IMG/VR virus record: IMGVR_UViG_3300031974_003589
Span: 1-27,754 of that record
Direction: 5' to 3' (one strand)
Source of the DNA: a virus
Length of the DNA: 27,754 bases
Under the pieces are notes generated by a model. It had not been told where the DNA came from, searched no databases, and worked only from the letters and a program-made list of their open reading frames with translations. Position 1 is the first letter of the stretch; every line of letters begins with the position of its first letter. Positions 4,882 through 14,649 of this stretch are shown piece by piece. The position numbers and the translations under genes are program-made.

Positions 4882-5704
4882 GATAGTTCTTCTCAATGGC
4901 GATGTCTTTCAGAAAGATCATCTGCTAGAAAAAATGCGAGACGATGACTTCTACTATAATTGGCTTAGTAGAGATATTGCTTTAAGTGCATCTTCAATAA
5001 AAGACCTTGTGCCACCTAAAAGCCCAAAAGCTTGGTATTATGGGAACGGAAAACCCGAAAGTGATACTGCTTTGAGAGCAGGTATATTATTTCACAATGC
5101 AATACTAGAACCCGAAAAGTATGATAAGCTAAAGTTTTCTAAATTAAAAACTAGAACCGCAAAAGGATTCCGAGATGAGCAAAGCAGGATAAATGAACCG
5201 CTTTATACTGCAAATGAAAAAGCTTTTAATGATAGGCTTGTCTCTGAGTTCACTGTAAACAAAAGAGCAATGAGCAAATTATCCGGAGCAGACTTTGAGG
5301 TGCCTTTGTTTGGTTATATAGAGGGGTTACCTTTTAGGGGCAAGGCTGATATTATTACACCGGATGGAAGAATATTGGATTTGAAAACAACAGGCAACCT
5401 TGAAGATTTTCCTAAAAGTGCTTATTCTTTTAGTTACGATGTGCAATGTTATATCTACGCAACTTTAATGGGGGCAGATCCTTTGGGATGTGAGTTCTTG
5501 GTTATATCTAAAAATACCTATGATATTGGATTTTTTGAAGTAGATAGATCTTTTATCGATCAAGGAAAAGATAAGCTAATGAGAGCCATTGAGGTTTACA
5601 AGCAGATCTTTTGGAAAAAATCTGACGATGAGATCAGAGAAACCTTAAACGAATTATCATTCGATAACAAATTATATTCACGAGAAAAATACCATAAAAA
5701 ATGA
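4826..5704 (+). CDS. RecE/YqaJ-like PD-(D/E)XK exonuclease
   Basis: 292 residues, resembling the exodeoxyribonuclease VIII C-terminal domain family (RecE/DUF3799 type), 5'-3' exonucleases that make single-stranded tails for recombination. Visible family features are: ALSASSIKDL near the start of the domain; ALRAGILFHNAILEPEKY around residues 82-99 with H90; a conserved acidic residue E158 (FEVP); D175 in GKADII; D185-L-K187 in ILDLKTT; and the YDVQ-x-x-x-Y helix with Q207 and Y211. All catalytic positions appear intact. The first 20 residues overlap the 46-residue gene, so an internal ATG at 4844 is an alternative start. No RecT-like annealing partner is recognisable nearby. Its stop overlaps the next start (ATGA). 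Confidence 0.85.
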   Translation: MERIKDMLSASRPSKNQDEIVLLNGDVFQKDHLLEKMRDDDFYYNWLSRDIALSASSIKDLVPPKSPKAWYYGNGKPESDTALRAGILFHNAILEPEKYDKLKFSKLKTRTAKGFRDEQSRINEPLYTANEKAFNDRLVSEFTVNKRAMSKLSGADFEVPLFGYIEGLPFRGKADIITPDGRILDLKTTGNLEDFPKSAYSFSYDVQCYIYATLMGADPLGCEFLVISKNTYDIGFFEVDRSFIDQGKDKLMRAIEVYKQIFWKKSDDEIRETLNELSFDNKLYSREKYHKK

Positions 5705-6165
5705 GCATACATATATTTAAGCAATACGCTAGGGACATTAAAAAATTAACCGGAATTAATGTCTTTGAAACCAAAAAAGGAATAGCAAGAACAGATGCCA
5801 ATGCATTTGCAAGATCAATATTAAATCAGTTATATACTAAATCAGTTCGTAAATGGACATTGTATGGTGTAAGGGATATGTATATTGAATGCGGAAAACC
5901 AATGGATCACACAACTGTATTACATTCTTTAAATAGCTTTGAGAATTATTTGCGAGTTCCAATAGAGAAACAAGTCAAAGAATTAAAAATGCCTATTCGA
6001 GAGGTTTACTATCGGGTATTAATATCAGACCTTGGAATACTCAGAAAAAAAATGATAGTAAATGACAAACTTGTGTATCTTGATCCCAAGCAAATTAGAG
6101 AGGTAGAATCTTTGGTAGATTCCTATGCAGAAAAAAACATTAAAGAATATTTACAAGAAGTATGA
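5701..6165 (+). CDS. DnaA domain IV-like DNA-binding protein
   Basis: 154 residues, much shorter than DnaA and without any P-loop. Residues about 31-85 resemble DnaA domain IV, the helix-turn-helix domain that recognises DnaA boxes. The segment D69-HTTVLH-75 is nearly identical to the DnaA signature (DHTTVLHA), whose Asp, His, Thr-Thr and second His contact the box. The preceding helices (ANAFARSILNQLYTKSV, then YGVRDMYI) take the place of the usual RQIAMYL and IGxxFGGR elements. The rest of the C-terminus is helical and unassigned. It is coupled by ATGA overlaps to the exonuclease gene before and the glycosyltransferase gene after. It may bind the phage origin or host DnaA boxes; lacking AAA+ it cannot act as a full initiator alone. 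Confidence 0.7.
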   Translation: MSIHIFKQYARDIKKLTGINVFETKKGIARTDANAFARSILNQLYTKSVRKWTLYGVRDMYIECGKPMDHTTVLHSLNSFENYLRVPIEKQVKELKMPIREVYYRVLISDLGILRKKMIVNDKLVYLDPKQIREVESLVDSYAEKNIKEYLQEV

Positions 6166-6872
6166 TTCCGAAGATAGTTCATCAGATATTTTTTAATTTA
6201 AGGGATGAGAAAATAGAAGATATTCCATTATTTCAAAAAAGCATAGAATCTATTAAGAAACATAATCCAAACGTAAAACATATTCTTTGGGATGAAGAAA
6301 TGTGCTTGAATTTAATGATAAAAGATTTTCCAGAGTATCTTTATTTTTATGTAAATATGAGATATGATATACAAAGAATAGATTATATTAGAAACGTTAT
6401 ATTACATTCATTTGGGGGCATTTATGTTGATCTTGATATGATATGCTTAAAAAACATAGATGATCTGTTTAAAAAAAGATTTTTTATCCATAGCTTAAGA
6501 CATCTAAAACCTAATCATAGTGAATTTGTATTGAATGATTTGATGGGATCTGAAAAAGGATTCAAATTTTGGAAGATACTATTGGATAGAACCGTTGACA
6601 ATTATAAAGAAAAAGAAAGCATTGAAGTGTATAATACTTGGAAAGCAAGATTTGTCTTGCAAACAACCGGTCCTAAATTCCTCAGCAGAATATTAAAGGA
6701 TGTTTTGCCAAGCTATAAACCGGAGCATCTTGTTTATATTGACACTGAAAACGCTATGCAAAAAGAATGGAGATTTGAAACGAAAATAAAAAGTAAAGAT
6801 GGATATTACTTTGAAGATTATAAGGCAGGAACTTGGTTACCAAATTTAAAGAAAGATGATAAAAAAAGTTAA
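6162..6872 (+). CDS. GT32-like (DXD) glycosyltransferase
   Basis: 236 residues matching the OCH1/capsular polysaccharide-type glycosyltransferase family (Gly_transf_sug, GT32). It begins MIPKIVHQIF, the family start, continues with NPNVKHILWDE near residue 40, then YDIQRIDYIRNVIL near 68-81 and the sugar-nucleotide-metal DXD motif in GGIYVDLDM with D90 and D92. Such enzymes transfer a hexose from a nucleotide sugar. The neighbours are a ParB-like protein, a second glycosyltransferase and a TET/JBP dioxygenase, so hydroxymethylated DNA bases, or a sugar already placed on them, are a plausible acceptor. Modification of host surface glycans is the main alternative. It is coupled by a 4-base overlap to the DnaA-like gene and overlaps the ParB-like gene by 17 bases. 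Confidence 0.8.
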   Translation: MIPKIVHQIFFNLRDEKIEDIPLFQKSIESIKKHNPNVKHILWDEEMCLNLMIKDFPEYLYFYVNMRYDIQRIDYIRNVILHSFGGIYVDLDMICLKNIDDLFKKRFFIHSLRHLKPNHSEFVLNDLMGSEKGFKFWKILLDRTVDNYKEKESIEVYNTWKARFVLQTTGPKFLSRILKDVLPSYKPEHLVYIDTENAMQKEWRFETKIKSKDGYYFEDYKAGTWLPNLKKDDKKS

Positions 6873-7434
6873 AATTTCAGAAGTAAAAAGAAATCCCAAC
6901 AATCCAAGATTGATTAAGGATTACAAGTACAAGAAACTCGTAAAGAGCATCAAGGATTTTCCCAATATGCTTGAGTTAAGACCTATTGTGGTTGATGAGG
7001 ATATGGTTATCCTTGGGGGTAATATGCGATACAGAGCAAGTGTAGATGCAGGGCTAAATGAGGTTTGGATCAAAGTTGCAGACAATTTAACAGAAGATCA
7101 AAAGAAGGAGTTTATAATAAAAGACAACTCAAACTTTGGTGAATGGGATTGGGATATGTTGGCAAACGAATGGGATGTAGATTCTTTGGGTGAATGGGGA
7201 TTAGATCTTCCGGCAGTTTATTTTGATGACGATGAGGAGCCAGAGTTTGACGAAGAAGAGTTGGACAAAGACCTTGATACTTATATAAACAATAACATCA
7301 AGCAGATTGTTTTGTATTACAATACCGAAGATTATGAAACTATGATTGAGAATCTTGACAAACTCAAAGAGGCAGAATCAATAGATGATAATTCTAAACT
7401 GATCAAAAACCTTGTAGATGCAAAGCTTTCCTAA
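6856..7434 (+). CDS. ParB/Srx-fold protein of the modification island
   Basis: 192 residues. Residues 1 to about 95 form the ParB N-terminal (ParB/sulfiredoxin) fold: KISEVKRNPNNPRLI, a helix KLVKSIKDF, RPIVVDEDMVILGGNMR (about 42-58) and a following helix with a conserved glycine. In phages this domain is often fused to, or sits beside, DNA methyltransferases and is thought to act on or load onto DNA; the extension IIKDNSNFGEWDWDML is typical of that group rather than of chromosome-partitioning ParB. The C-terminal third is very acidic and has no helix-turn-helix. No methyltransferase domain is fused here. The neighbours point to a role in DNA modification, for example nucleotide hydrolysis or recruitment. 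It overlaps the next gene by 17 bases. Confidence 0.75.
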   Translation: MIKKVKISEVKRNPNNPRLIKDYKYKKLVKSIKDFPNMLELRPIVVDEDMVILGGNMRYRASVDAGLNEVWIKVADNLTEDQKKEFIIKDNSNFGEWDWDMLANEWDVDSLGEWGLDLPAVYFDDDEEPEFDEEELDKDLDTYINNNIKQIVLYYNTEDYETMIENLDKLKEAESIDDNSKLIKNLVDAKLS

Positions 7435-8260
7435 AATATTTATTCCTTCATACAATAGACCGGAAGAAATTAAAACACTTAGGAATCTAAAAGGATATGA
7501 TCCTACAATAGTTTTACATTCAGATGAGCAGTTGCAAATGTATAAGCAATACAATCCGGATTTAAAATATGTCGTAACCGATATTCCTGTGGGGGAGTAT
7601 GGAGTTATCCGCACAAGAAACTTTATTCAAGATAATTTGGTTGAAGATGGGGAGTGGTTTATTATGTTTGACGATAACAACCATAAGATAACTAAAGTTG
7701 ACGATGATCATTATGGGTTTCAATCGTTAGATGTTAAATCAGATAAAAAATATCAGCAGATATACAATCAAGAAGTAACCTTAAATGAGATTGAGCATCT
7801 AATAATGCGAGATATAAAAATGGCTGAAAGAACTGGAGTGCATCACATTTCGTATGCTCCAAATGAAAATTATTTTTTTAGACCAAACAAATATCGGAAC
7901 ATAGGATATACGAAAGGAAATGCGACCATTACAAAAAAAGATGGAGTAAGATGGGATGAGAACTTAAAATCTATGTGCGATTATACTTATCCTTGTCAGC
8001 AGTTAGTAAAATACGGAAGAGTGCTTATAAACTATTTTATTTGCTTTCACAAGAAACATTACTCTCCAGGTGGAATAGGAACGTATGATAGCAGATTGCC
8101 TATGAAACTGCACGATACTGAATACCTTATGAAAAAATATGAAGGATTATTACGTTATTCTGTAAAGAAGGGAATGCATCCTCAGTCGGATCTTACCTTT
8201 AGGATCACTAATATGAACTCATTTAAAAAATGGAGAGCAAACTATCTGCGAAATGAATAA
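7418..8260 (+). CDS. TET-associated-type DNA base glycosyltransferase (candidate)
   Basis: 280 residues of apparent GT-A fold. It opens with PKIFIPSYNRP (about 5-15), followed by a strand-helix pair, then VGEYGVIRTRNFI (58-70) and the sugar-nucleotide/metal motif FIMFDDN with D85-D86-N87. These elements, in this order, resemble the glycosyltransferases found next to TET/JBP genes in phages (the TAGT group), proposed to glycosylate hydroxymethylated bases. The gene directly downstream, overlapping by 8 bases, is such a dioxygenase, which strongly supports the role. The centre (about 100-200) is charged and would carry the acceptor site. Other GT-A enzymes remain possible, since I rely on motif order and context. 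No signal peptide is seen, fitting a cytoplasmic DNA-acting enzyme. Confidence 0.7.
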   Translation: MQSFPKIFIPSYNRPEEIKTLRNLKGYDPTIVLHSDEQLQMYKQYNPDLKYVVTDIPVGEYGVIRTRNFIQDNLVEDGEWFIMFDDNNHKITKVDDDHYGFQSLDVKSDKKYQQIYNQEVTLNEIEHLIMRDIKMAERTGVHHISYAPNENYFFRPNKYRNIGYTKGNATITKKDGVRWDENLKSMCDYTYPCQQLVKYGRVLINYFICFHKKHYSPGGIGTYDSRLPMKLHDTEYLMKKYEGLLRYSVKKGMHPQSDLTFRITNMNSFKKWRANYLRNE

Positions 8261-9179
8261 GATAAATCTTGTGCGTAACAAAATAGATATAGCAAAGTAT
8301 AAGAAAAGATCTGCGCTAATATCGGATGTATCTAAAATAATCAAAGAAGATACTATTGTTTTTTGCGAGGGCAAACCGATAATACTGTATAAAAAACTCG
8401 ATAAGGATCTGACAAAGAATCTTAGATGGGCAGTAAAAAACACTAGCTTTATCACAGGCAAAAGATCAAGAGGGCTTAAACATACTTCAAGAACATTTGG
8501 ATATGCACCGAGAATCGCAATGCGACAAGATTACTGCCACACAACATCAATGGCATACGATCAACCAAAGCATCACTTAGTGGTATCAAAATTTGCAGAG
8601 AATTTAAAGGATATATATGCAGAGAATTTTCCAGAGGTATATGCGGATCACTCAAAAAGAGTAGAAGAAAGAATCAAGCCGGAATGGAAAATAGCAGATA
8701 CACCCTTTACAAGCGGAATCATAAATAAAAACAATCCATTAAAATATCACTTTGATCAAGGAAACTTTAAAGGAGTGATGAGTAATATGATTGCATTTAA
8801 AAAGGATGTTGTCGGAGGTCATCTTGTAATGCCTGAATTTGACATTGCTTTTGAGATTGATGATAATACTTTGAGTATATTTGATGGGCAAGATATATTG
8901 CACGGAGTATCCGGATTTGAAAGAAAAAATGATCACGGATATAGATATACAATAGTATATTATTCTTTGGAGCAAATGTGGAAATGCGAACCAATAGATG
9001 AAGAGGTACTGCGTATTAGAAAGGTAAAAGAAGAAAGAGAGAAAAAAAGACTTGATCCGGAACACTTGGAAACATTAAAGAAACGCAAACAAGAACTTCA
9101 AGAACATTCAGAGAAAGAGAAAACATTAAGCAAGTTAAAAAATGGACAAATCGGACACACTAAAAAAGGCAACGCTTGA
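8253..9179 (+). CDS. TET/JBP-family 2OG-Fe(II) dioxygenase
   Basis: 308 residues. The double-stranded beta-helix core lies at about 145-240. The iron ligands are visible as H166-F-D168 and H217 (DILHGV), and R231 (GYRYTIVYY) is placed to bind 2-oxoglutarate. The stretch between, with GGHLVMPEF and LSIFDGQ, has the exact shape of phage TET/JBP enzymes that oxidise the methyl group of 5-methylcytosine or thymine in DNA. All catalytic residues appear intact. The N-terminal 140 residues include a short Cys/His stretch (DYCHTT) and probably form a family-specific DNA-binding part. The C-terminal 55 residues are a charged coiled coil that overlaps the terminase small subunit gene by 38 bases. It should produce the hydroxymethyl acceptor for the neighbouring glycosyltransferases. 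No C5-methyltransferase is in the window. Confidence 0.85.
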   Translation: MNKINLVRNKIDIAKYKKRSALISDVSKIIKEDTIVFCEGKPIILYKKLDKDLTKNLRWAVKNTSFITGKRSRGLKHTSRTFGYAPRIAMRQDYCHTTSMAYDQPKHHLVVSKFAENLKDIYAENFPEVYADHSKRVEERIKPEWKIADTPFTSGIINKNNPLKYHFDQGNFKGVMSNMIAFKKDVVGGHLVMPEFDIAFEIDDNTLSIFDGQDILHGVSGFERKNDHGYRYTIVYYSLEQMWKCEPIDEEVLRIRKVKEEREKKRLDPEHLETLKKRKQELQEHSEKEKTLSKLKNGQIGHTKKGNA

Positions 9180-9489
9180 GGCATTAGAGAAATCTCTAGG
9201 GGTTGTTACAACCGCAGTCAAACAAGTTGGAATTGCTAGAAGTACTTTTTACGAATGGATGAAAGACCACGAGTTTAAAATGCAAGTAGATGACATTCAA
9301 AACATAGCTTTAGATTTTGCCGAAAGCCAACTGCACAAACAAATACAATCGGGCAATACTTCAGCAACAATATTTTACTTAAAGACAAAGGGTAAGAACA
9401 GAGGATATGTTGAACGTCAAGAATTAACCGGAGCAGATGGTTACCCTGCTGAGATTGAGTTGAATATCATCAAAACGAATGCGAATTGA
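9142..9489 (+). CDS. terS: Terminase small subunit
   Basis: 115 residues. A helix-turn-helix occupies about residues 12-42 (LEALEKSLG then AVKQVGIARSTFYEWM), the form seen in small terminases of Gram-positive and Bacteroidota phages. The central helices (IQNIALDFAESQLHKQI) and the segment SATIFYLKTKGKNRGY are typical of this family, which recognises the packaging site and feeds DNA to the large subunit. It is immediately followed, with an 11-base overlap, by the large subunit. Unusually, it starts 38 bases inside the dioxygenase gene, so packaging and modification genes are probably translated from one message. Confidence 0.85.
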   Translation: MDKSDTLKKATLEALEKSLGVVTTAVKQVGIARSTFYEWMKDHEFKMQVDDIQNIALDFAESQLHKQIQSGNTSATIFYLKTKGKNRGYVERQELTGADGYPAEIELNIIKTNAN

Positions 9490-10633
9490 CACCAACGTTG
9501 TATGCGAACATCTTGTTTACTCTGATAAAAAAATAATAGTAGAGCAAGGGGGAACTCGTTCGGGAAAGACATACAATATACTTCTTTGGATTATTTTTCA
9601 TTATTGTGCCGAGAATACCGGAAAAGTAATTACGATCTGTAGAAAGACTTATCCGGCTTTAAGGACATCGGCAATGAGGGATTTTATTACAATCCTTAGA
9701 GAAAAAAATATATACCGAGAAGATGACCATAACAAGTCATCGTCAGAATATAGGCTCAAAGGAAACCTTGTGGAATTTATATCTTTAGATCAACCACAAA
9801 AGGTAAGGGGTAGAAAAAGAGATTTGCTTTTCATTAACGAGGCTAATGAATTGTTTTGGGAGGATTGGCAGCAGCTTATATTCAGAACACAAGAAAGAAT
9901 AATAATTGATTATAACCCATCAGATGAATACCATTGGATATACGATAAAGTCATCAATCGAGAAGATTGTGCTTTCTTTCAAACAACTTATCTGGATAAC
10001 CCTTATCTGGAGAAAACTATCGTTGATGAGATCGAGAGACTTAAAGAAACAGATGAAGAATATTGGCAAATTTACGGACTTGGAATTCGAGGAGTTTCTA
10101 AATCAACTATCTTCCGATACGTGGAAGTAGATAGAATACCGGACAACGCATCTTTTTTAGCATACGGAATTGACTACGGATTCACAAATGATCCAACAAC
10201 AATCGTTGGGGTTTGGACAGATGAATATATGTTATATGCTAAAGAATATCTTTATCAAACAATGATGACAACGATAGACATACACAAAAAGCTAAAGTCT
10301 ATTGGAATAGATCGTGAGATAATATTTGGAGATTCAGCAGAACCAAGGCTAAACGAAGAATTGCGAAGAATGGGATGGAATATAAAACCAAGCCTTAAAG
10401 GAAAGGATAGTATAAATGCGGGAATAGATCTACTCAAGCGATATAAAATACACTTGACAAAGGATTCCAATAATATGATACAAGAGTTTCGTAATTACAA
10501 ATGGAAGCAAGATCGTAGTGGCAAGACATTAAATGTACCCGAAGATAAGGCAAACCATACAACAGATGCCTTGAGATATGCTACATATTCATTGTTAAGC
10601 AGACCAAACTTCGGTAGGTATGCAATCCGCTAA
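9479..10633 (+). CDS. terL: Terminase large subunit
   Basis: 384 residues with both terminase domains, ATP-driven translocation and headful or site-specific cleavage. The ATPase has Walker A in QGGTRSGKT (K30) and Walker B LLFINE (about 116-121) with E121 as catalytic glutamate. The C-terminal RNase H-like nuclease has D232 in GIDYGF, D285 in FGDSAEP and D363 in TTDALRYA, the three acidic metal ligands. The length is short but normal for the phage Terminase_3/XtmB type. The gene ends the long overlapping chain that began at 4741. An AT-rich 56-base gap, without a good hairpin, separates it from the next gene. Confidence 0.92.
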   Translation: MRIDTNVVCEHLVYSDKKIIVEQGGTRSGKTYNILLWIIFHYCAENTGKVITICRKTYPALRTSAMRDFITILREKNIYREDDHNKSSSEYRLKGNLVEFISLDQPQKVRGRKRDLLFINEANELFWEDWQQLIFRTQERIIIDYNPSDEYHWIYDKVINREDCAFFQTTYLDNPYLEKTIVDEIERLKETDEEYWQIYGLGIRGVSKSTIFRYVEVDRIPDNASFLAYGIDYGFTNDPTTIVGVWTDEYMLYAKEYLYQTMMTTIDIHKKLKSIGIDREIIFGDSAEPRLNEELRRMGWNIKPSLKGKDSINAGIDLLKRYKIHLTKDSNNMIQEFRNYKWKQDRSGKTLNVPEDKANHTTDALRYATYSLLSRPNFGRYAIR

Positions 10634-12656: not shown

Positions 12657-13132
12657 AAGACACTCAAAAAAGACTAGAAGATTTTGGTAAACTTGTTGTC
12701 AAGACAAGCAGATACTATTTGACAAAAGGCAAACATAAGTCAAGCGGAGATCTGTACAAAAATTTGACATTCGATATTACTAAAAATGCGGATGGCTATT
12801 CTATGATATTTGAGATGCCTTACTATGGAGAATTTGTCGATAGAGGGGTTTCGGGTACTGAGAAAAAATACGATACACCATATAAATATACAACCAAGAA
12901 ACCACCTTATAGAGCCTTATTAGGATGGGTAAAGCAAAAAAAGATACGCTTTAGAGATCCTCAAGGAAGATTCAAAGCCGGAAACTACAAGACAATAGCT
13001 GCGATAATGCAAAACAGTATCTACAAAAAAGGAATGGCACCTACGTTATTCTTTACAAAGCCTTTCGAGAAACACTTTAAGAACCTTCCGGATGAACTGC
13101 TTGGAGGTCTTGCAAATGATTATAACCTATGA
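12650..13132 (+). CDS. HK97 gp10-like head-tail/neck protein
   Basis: 160 residues. The sequence MPYYGEFVDRGVSG near residues 55-69 is the hallmark of the HK97 gp10-like family (small tail-completion or neck proteins; core Y-x-x-FVE/D-x-GT/G). Before it is a helix (LEDFGKLVVKTSRYYL), and the end has PTLFFTKPFEKHF, the typical C-terminal helix. The extra basic segment KKPPYRALLGWVKQKKIR is also frequent in members that carry it as an extended loop. It acts at the connection of head and tail. It overlaps both neighbours in the tail operon. The assignment is good at family level. Confidence 0.75.
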   Translation: MLKDTQKRLEDFGKLVVKTSRYYLTKGKHKSSGDLYKNLTFDITKNADGYSMIFEMPYYGEFVDRGVSGTEKKYDTPYKYTTKKPPYRALLGWVKQKKIRFRDPQGRFKAGNYKTIAAIMQNSIYKKGMAPTLFFTKPFEKHFKNLPDELLGGLANDYNL

Positions 13133-14649
13133 GTACAAAAATTAACGTAAGAAGCCCTTACTATTTATCATATTCTGAACCGGTTGATCCAACACCTGCC
13201 TTTACTTGTGGATATGCAAATCCCCAAAATTTTTCAGTAGATGAAAGTGGTGCGGTATCATTACCAACATTAAGCTATGGTGCAATAGAATCTTATACTT
13301 CAACTGCTTCTGATTTTTCAAACGGAAGTTTTGACGAGGTTTCCTCTAGCACTTCTAGAACAGTTGACCTTACAATAATAGCCCCTGCGGGATTCAGTAA
13401 TGAAGGAAGCGGAATAGTTTGTAGCGTTACTGCAGATCAACCTGCCAAACCTGTGAGTTGTCCTGCGGTGGTAAGTGCAACCGGAACAATAGCAACCCAA
13501 TCATTAGATACCGGAGGAGATTCAGTAACAATAGACTATTCAAGTTATTTCACCGGAACAACAACGGATTTTACTGATGTTGTTTTAAATTCAAATGGGT
13601 CATACCTTGATGCAAGTATAAATACTGCAGATGAAGAGATCACATTAACATCAAAAGATACCGCAGGATCATTTACAATTCAAATTGAAAGAATAGATAA
13701 CACAACTGGTTGTAATGCGAAACAAACAATTACAACTACTCTTACTTCTCTAGATGCTTTTGATTGTACTGCAGCGAATCTTATTGGGGGTGCAATAAAT
13801 CCTGATGGAAGTTTAACAACACCATCCTCAATAGGAACAGTAACCGCAACAAAAGAAACAAGTGGAGGTTCTTCCGTTACAAGCATCGCAGCAAACAACA
13901 CGAGTTCAGATATAAGCGTTACATTGTATTACGATGTCCTTGCGCCATCTGGATATTCAAACGCAGGATCTACAATAGAATGTAATGTAACCTATACGCA
14001 AAAATCTAATATTACGCTTTTCGATTTTGATTGTAATGACGTTGATTTAGATGATCAAGCTATTTTGGTAGATGGTAGTGTAGTTGCAGGAGTAGCGAAA
14101 TGGCACGGAGCACCATTAGGCAAAGATGATCCAGAATATTACTTAACTATTGATAGCTTTACCCCTACCAAATTTACAAGAGTAGATACAACGGTAAGGC
14201 AAGATGTTACCTTTACAATACAAACTCCCGCATCCGGATTTGCAAATAGTGGAAGCACAATTGATTGTGTTGCTAGAATATGGCAACCTGCTCAGCCGGC
14301 AGCAGTTGTTGATCCTTGTGCTGACAAAACTGAAACTTGGTATATTGGGGTAGAAACCAATGATGTTTATACTAATTTTTATGACAAGAATATACAATAT
14401 TGTAGATATGAGGCAAAAGCAGAAGATGTACTTGCACCGGATGGTTCTTGGGAAGGGAAAACTCTTTGTTATTTAGGTAAATTAGCGGAGTTTCCCAATG
14501 GGCATCACACTTATATAAGAAAGACTAAGGGGAGTGTATATCTAGCATCAGTTACTCAATATGAATACGTTTTAGTTTTTGGAAGTAATTATACTATTTC
14601 TGCAGTTTATTTAAAAGATTGGAATACCAAACAGTTAAGAAGATTATAA
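13129..14649 (+). CDS. Repetitive beta-rich tail protein (three modules)
   Basis: 506 residues, low in charge and rich in Ser, Thr, Asn and Gly, suggesting an extended beta-structure. Three imperfect modules of about 80 to 100 residues can be traced: each starts with a Phe-x-Cys (about residues 25, 211 and 300), carries a DGS or ESG turn, and ends with a PxGFxNxGSxIxC motif (85-98, 272-285, 367-380). A different segment (about 105-205) separates modules one and two. The paired cysteines could form disulfides outside the cell. The C-terminal 110 residues have no repeat and include CADKTETWYIG. The protein is probably a tail or baseplate adhesin. It overlaps the gp10-like gene by 4 bases. No named family. 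Confidence 0.55.
   Translation: MSTKINVRSPYYLSYSEPVDPTPAFTCGYANPQNFSVDESGAVSLPTLSYGAIESYTSTASDFSNGSFDEVSSSTSRTVDLTIIAPAGFSNEGSGIVCSVTADQPAKPVSCPAVVSATGTIATQSLDTGGDSVTIDYSSYFTGTTTDFTDVVLNSNGSYLDASINTADEEITLTSKDTAGSFTIQIERIDNTTGCNAKQTITTTLTSLDAFDCTAANLIGGAINPDGSLTTPSSIGTVTATKETSGGSSVTSIAANNTSSDISVTLYYDVLAPSGYSNAGSTIECNVTYTQKSNITLFDFDCNDVDLDDQAILVDGSVVAGVAKWHGAPLGKDDPEYYLTIDSFTPTKFTRVDTTVRQDVTFTIQTPASGFANSGSTIDCVARIWQPAQPAAVVDPCADKTETWYIGVETNDVYTNFYDKNIQYCRYEAKAEDVLAPDGSWEGKTLCYLGKLAEFPNGHHTYIRKTKGSVYLASVTQYEYVLVFGSNYTISAVYLKDWNTKQLRRL

Follow-up and report, generated by a model that had tools for sequence, protein, structure and literature searches.

A ParB-glycosyltransferase-TET gene island of a likely Bacteroidota phage, a candidate for base-J-like thymine hypermodification

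Described systems and the phage island

In kinetoplastids, base J arises through the thymine hydroxylases JBP1 and JBP2, followed by a glucosyltransferase. T-even phages shield their DNA from restriction with a glycosylated hydroxymethyl pyrimidine too, glucosylated hydroxymethylcytosine. Phage M6 decorates 5-hydroxymethyl-deoxyuridine (5hmdU) in DNA following phosphorylation by a 5hmdU DNA kinase (PMC6449724), and phage sets of a C5-methyltransferase, a TET enzyme and glycosyltransferases have been described as making glycosylated cytosine (PMC12730594, citing Burke et al. 2021). The subject of the present analysis is a 27,754-base virus record (IMG/VR IMGVR_UViG_3300031974_003589; hereafter the window, probably incomplete) in which a sequence-only reading had placed, at 6162-9179, a four-gene island for DNA base hypermodification. 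This island is real and resembles the known phage TET and thymine-hypermodification systems, with sister loci suggesting the thymine step.

The four open reading frames (ORFs) of the island lie on the plus strand and overlap their neighbours by 17, 17 and 8 bases. They encode a GT32-type glycosyltransferase (6162..6872, 236 aa; PF04488, 4.4e-16), a ParB N-terminal-fold protein (6856..7434, 192 aa; PF02195, 1.6e-6; GGNMR motif at 54-58), a TET-associated glycosyltransferase (TAGT; 7418..8260, 280 aa; PF20691, 9.3e-13) and a TET/JBP 2-oxoglutarate/Fe(II) dioxygenase (8253..9179, 308 aa; PF12851, 2.5e-12). All four products exceed the curated Pfam cut-offs; positions, families and the residues singled out beforehand are as had been claimed. 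The chain of overlapping genes was also found, and is longer than first described, extending to 5701-6165 on the 5' side and into the terminase genes on the 3' side.

The residues named for the dioxygenase, H166, D168 and H217 (metal triad) and R231 (2-oxoglutarate arginine), do not vary among 19 aligned sequences that are 23-79% identical to the window protein. Sequence searches of the PDB (phmmer and profile) gave only weak matches to CMD1. The fold search succeeded instead: with an AlphaFold model (mean pLDDT 74), Foldseek retrieved the solved TET/CMD1 structures first (CcTet, CMD1, NgTET1 and human TET2; top E 7e-11). The window TET is proposed to be a thymine 5-methyl hydroxylase. The phrog_6059 label attached to this protein and to its mycobacteriophage homologues is "queuine tRNA-ribosyltransferase", and one record names its TET homologue DpdA-like; both labels look like annotation errors.

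The TAGT gene adjoins the TET gene. The predicted DDN motif at 85-87 is present in its GT-A/TAGT-like product, and its middle residue, D86, is invariant across 12 diverse TAGTs, as are D188, G218 and G219. Foldseek matches to its model (pLDDT 81) include GT-A glycosyltransferases and nucleotidyltransferases but are low in TM-score, so that no specific donor or acceptor can be read from them; among isolated phages the protein had no match at E 0.01. Family and position point to a proposed role in glycosylating the hydroxymethyl group made by TET.

The proposed pathway is like that of base J in that a TET/JBP-fold dioxygenase is followed by a glycosyltransferase, the route being thymine to 5-hydroxymethyluracil (5hmU) to glycosyl-5hmU. 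The window differs in its phage operon, in a separate ParB-fold partner and in that no J-binding domain was identified; its mark would probably be a genome-wide shield, whereas base J is a transcription-termination mark. The actinophage operons of Tonitrus, Reprobate, Prince and Acadian likewise have ParB and TET together close to the terminase, with TETs 28-36% identical. They carry decorations of the TAGT type or of amino acid:DNA transferase (ADDT)/kinase type, with TAGT plus a PIG-L deacetylase in Acadian; the window, in contrast, combines GT32 with a TAGT placed between ParB and TET, lacks the kinase and probably has a Bacteroidota host. The thymidine hypermodifications of M6, ViI and phiW-14 use transferase and kinase families common to the window's sister loci, but M6-type 5hmdU is made at the nucleotide level with a thymidylate-synthase homologue, whereas TET would make 5hmU in DNA. 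T-even phages differ in making hydroxymethylcytosine as a nucleotide, without TET. The phage TET cytosine systems of Burke et al. (2021) likewise join TET with glycosyltransferases; they are reported to carry a C5-methyltransferase, which was found over full length neither in the window nor in the relatives searched.

There is a good probability, in our judgement, that ParB and TET write 5hmU at thymine sites and that TAGT glycosylates it, a base-J-like hypermodification. The ParB-fold protein would bind DNA and help direct the dioxygenase, and TET would hydroxylate the 5-methyl group of thymine in replicated phage DNA, as the cassette exchanges described below suggest. TAGT would then move a sugar onto the 5hmU hydroxyl, the GT32 enzyme might extend or vary that sugar, and the glycosylated base would be complete before packaging by the adjacent terminase. 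Such a bulky sugar would block host nucleases and shield the genome from bacterial defences; nuclease blocking is established for other phage hypermodifications.

Conserved gene order and exchangeable decoration genes

A scan of viral contigs yielded 78 related loci, and a profile scan yielded 332 related stretches, 80 of which were kept; L-numbers below are labels of related loci. The order ParB-X-TET-TerS-TerL (X, variable gene; TerS and TerL, terminase small and large subunits) is strongly conserved in the clade of the window and syntenic in most of the 78 or more viral loci. A glycosyltransferase usually fills slot X, but its type differs between loci: TAGT or a relative of it, or a putative GT-B enzyme. 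Its protein clusters with the window TAGT in 32 loci and belongs in 29 others to a second TAGT-like type (phrog_842), marginally under the Pfam TAGT cut-off. In L041, L044 and L076 the slot holds a different protein of 301 aa, with no Pfam hit, read as putatively GT-B-like. In L067-L069, ParB immediately precedes TET and a related protein is located after TET.

Other loci of the same TET clade, with TETs about 51-58% identical, carry different chemistry in slot X: ADDT with a P-loop kinase in L060-L062, L073 and L115, and the kinase alone in L107 and L109. In L073 (3185-5605), TET is followed by genes for a glutamine amidotransferase, a GNAT acetyltransferase, ADDT and the P-loop kinase, a cassette that possibly produces an unusual amino-acid-type decoration of thymine. 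Conservation of the ParB-glycosyltransferase-TET block, together with exchangeability of the glycosyltransferase, lends good support to the earlier claim of a DNA-base hypermodification island acting by oxidation and then glycosylation.

The ParB-fold protein matches phrog_498/620, as well as ParB/Spo0J structures in the PDB, and is very strongly conserved (n=60 homologues). Its gene lies upstream of TET in nearly all informative loci of the window clade. ParB varies less between loci than the glycosyltransferase does, a sign that it partners TET; we infer a DNA-targeting role.

Several pairs of loci differ by a swap of the decoration cassette. L129 (ADDT and kinase) and L130 (TAGT) are 92% identical in DNA over a 3.67-kb stretch that comes within about 13 bases of where the cassette begins, and their TETs are sisters in the tree with strong support. 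For L131 and L133, identity is about 80-82% in each flank of the exchanged cassette, and the mycobacteriophages Reprobate (ADDT and an FAD protein) and Acadian (TAGT and PIG-L deacetylase) are 84% identical in both flanks. In a TET tree of 57 rows, loci labelled glycosyltransferase are mixed among those labelled kinase/transferase, and well-supported branches require the glycosyltransferase label to have changed at least 7 times. Near-identical TETs feed either enzyme set, and the simplest account is that they make one product, 5hmU.

Thymine or 5-methylcytosine

The sequence-only reading had implied 5-methylcytosine (5mC) as the TET substrate. This was not borne out: no full-length C5-methyltransferase was found and sister TETs accompany 5hmU-acting enzymes, two observations that make thymine the probable oxidised base. 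The methyltransferase search comprised two batches of 47 entries (94; some records are in both under different loci). Full-length PF00145 was detected neither in the window nor in its relatives, about 86 distinct records including full isolate genomes; partial matches were seen in the L132 record (78 model positions) and in L015 (a fragment under the cut-off). Nor did this search provide a C5-methyltransferase-linked TET as positive contrast. Two candidates were rejected. The "DNA methylase" of Prochlorococcus phage MED4-184 (L086:3581-4222) matches ParB_N and is a ParB-fold protein, its gene being followed in that phage by an FkbM methyltransferase and TET; the methyltransferase of Nonlabens phage P12024L is of the N4/N6 type.

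Genes of the 5hmdU-acting kinase and transferase families are absent from the window but stand beside homologous TETs in sister loci. The cassette proteins of relatives share PHROGs with gp54 (phrog_800) and gp51 (phrog_6364) of phage M6. The ADDT profile matches M6 gp51 at 1.7e-15. M6 gp54, reportedly the 5hmdU DNA kinase (Lee et al. 2018), was missed by the profiles built here, and since its direct profile comparison with the kinase alignments is weak, the link depends on the shared phrog_800. That family is labelled "terminase small subunit", yet its members include 5hmdU-kinase-type P-loop kinases (L083:3327-3866; L146:16686-17249, which is M6 gp54; L060:3451-3933), misnamed in several deposited phage genomes. 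A thymidylate-synthase-type dUMP hydroxymethylase was found in none of 38 TET-phage records, while M6, the positive control of that search, carries a thymidylate-synthase homologue; TET could thus be the supplier of 5hmU. The operon of Tonitrus, a relative of the island, has been read as thymine hypermodification in a published genome note, as a prediction (PMC11955845), and the TET homologue of Prince is deposited as a "thymidine hydroxylase", a database prediction.

Some observations weigh against thymine glycosylation as outlined above. Most of the virus records are fragments, and 5mC might possibly be supplied by the host. Kinases from the window clade match PF18751 weakly (E 0.004-0.006; phrog_800, 1e-9 to 5e-6). 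By BLAST, the kinase family occurs in about 400 actinophage records, compared with 96 that have a detectable TET homologue, so that a kinase by itself does not establish that thymine is the base. Acadian-type phages carry both TAGT and a kinase instead of one or the other, and GT32, being absent from most relatives, is optional.

These points leave some room for a cytosine route, in which TET would oxidise 5mC made by the host or by an undetected methyltransferase to 5-hydroxymethylcytosine (5hmC) and TAGT would glycosylate the product. TET/JBP enzymes of both specificities have the same fold, and the methyltransferase/TET/glycosyltransferase sets described in other phages offer a precedent (PMC12730594). 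The 94 search entries, whole isolate genomes included, are nonetheless devoid of a full-length C5-methyltransferase, and cassettes swap with homologues of 5hmdU-acting enzymes; we regard this route as unlikely. Far less probable still is that TET removes or over-oxidises bases, as a counter-defence or regulatory demodification, and that the glycosyltransferases serve another purpose. Some TETs do take 5mC past 5hmC (PMC12730594), but a decorating gene, drawn from several unrelated families, adjoins TET in most related loci, a pattern that fits a pathway building on the hydroxyl.

The GT32 gene, flanking genes and significance

The DLD motif at residues 90-92, another claim of the earlier reading, is present in the GT32-like enzyme, and D90 and D92 are conserved in 14 of 14 homologues. 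The reading had further suggested two steps or two sugars: oxidation followed by glycosylation is the part that stood, whereas the second sugar is weakly supported, GT32 being optional and without a linkage statistic. Fifty glycosyltransferase-type loci had enough upstream sequence to be informative; GT32 was found in 14, a GT-B-type enzyme (phrog_7162) in 20 and neither in 16. A second glycosyltransferase was thus present in 34/50 of these loci against 0/2 informative kinase-type loci, a difference that is not significant, and a direct link between GT32 and cassette type was dropped.

GT32 might add a second sugar, perhaps giving a disaccharide, or vary the sugar. The chances are nearly even, though slightly on the lower side, that it is instead a passenger that modifies sugars of the host surface or some phage protein and merely lies next to a genuine ParB-TAGT-TET island. 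This alternative concerns GT32 only and fits either base. It draws on the gene's occurrence in only 14 of the 50 loci and on the glycans or proteins that are the usual substrates of PF04488 relatives; it has to be set against the 17-base overlap with the ParB gene, the retention of catalytic residues in all 14 homologues and the presence, upstream of ParB in related phages, of other glycosyltransferases and a sugar-methyltransferase-like gene.

In some relatives (e.g. L038:6363-8403), ParB is preceded by the phrog_7162 glycosyltransferase and a Methyltransf_24/TylF-like gene, a hint that the sugars may be O-methylated. In Acadian and Altadena (L142:1707-3025; L144:4480-5828), TAGT is followed by a PIG-L/glucosaminyl deacetylase-like gene, which suggests that N-acetylglucosamine would be transferred to DNA and then deacetylated to glucosamine. 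Sugar diversity among these islands is plausible. A broader proposal, tentative and somewhat doubtful, is that this Bacteroidota-type phage makes a base-J-like thymine with a two-sugar or alternate tag, TET-ParB being a universal hydroxyl writer to which phages add interchangeable cassettes for decoration, either with glycosyltransferases of different types or by amino-acid transfer with a kinase.

All called genes of the window are on the plus strand, with replication genes upstream of the island and terminase and structural genes downstream. On the 5' side, a gene for a 154-aa protein without assigned function (5701..6165, plus strand) overlaps the GT32 gene by 4 bases; its homologues were found only in L005, L006 and L007, a few close relatives. 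On the 3' side, the plus-strand gene for the terminase small subunit (9142..9489; phrog_309, 5.5e-8) overlaps the TET gene by 38 bases and is followed by that for the large subunit (9479..10633, plus strand; PF04466, 1.5e-21; PF17288, 4e-19). A small-subunit gene comes after TET in most related loci and marks the 3' continuation of the chain. A 506-aa ORF amid the structural genes (13129-14649) has no PHROG match. The window terminase resembles those of Bacteroides-group phages, and the nearest cellular records are from Siphonobacter (Bacteroidota), one an isolate genome, as well as an Ignavibacteria metagenome-assembled genome; the host is likely to be a member of the Bacteroidota. The Siphonobacter isolate genome BAB-5405 has a prophage-like ParB-TET locus (L140:8001-8795) in which an unassigned 172-aa gene fills the decoration slot.

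Swap pairs in isolated phages allow a direct test of which substrates TET and TAGT accept. Should thymine be the substrate, then base J, commonly regarded as peculiar to kinetoplastids, has counterparts in phages, whose islands show a single oxidation handle carrying many decorations. Glycosylated thymines, if present, would be expected to confer resistance against many restriction and CRISPR nucleases.

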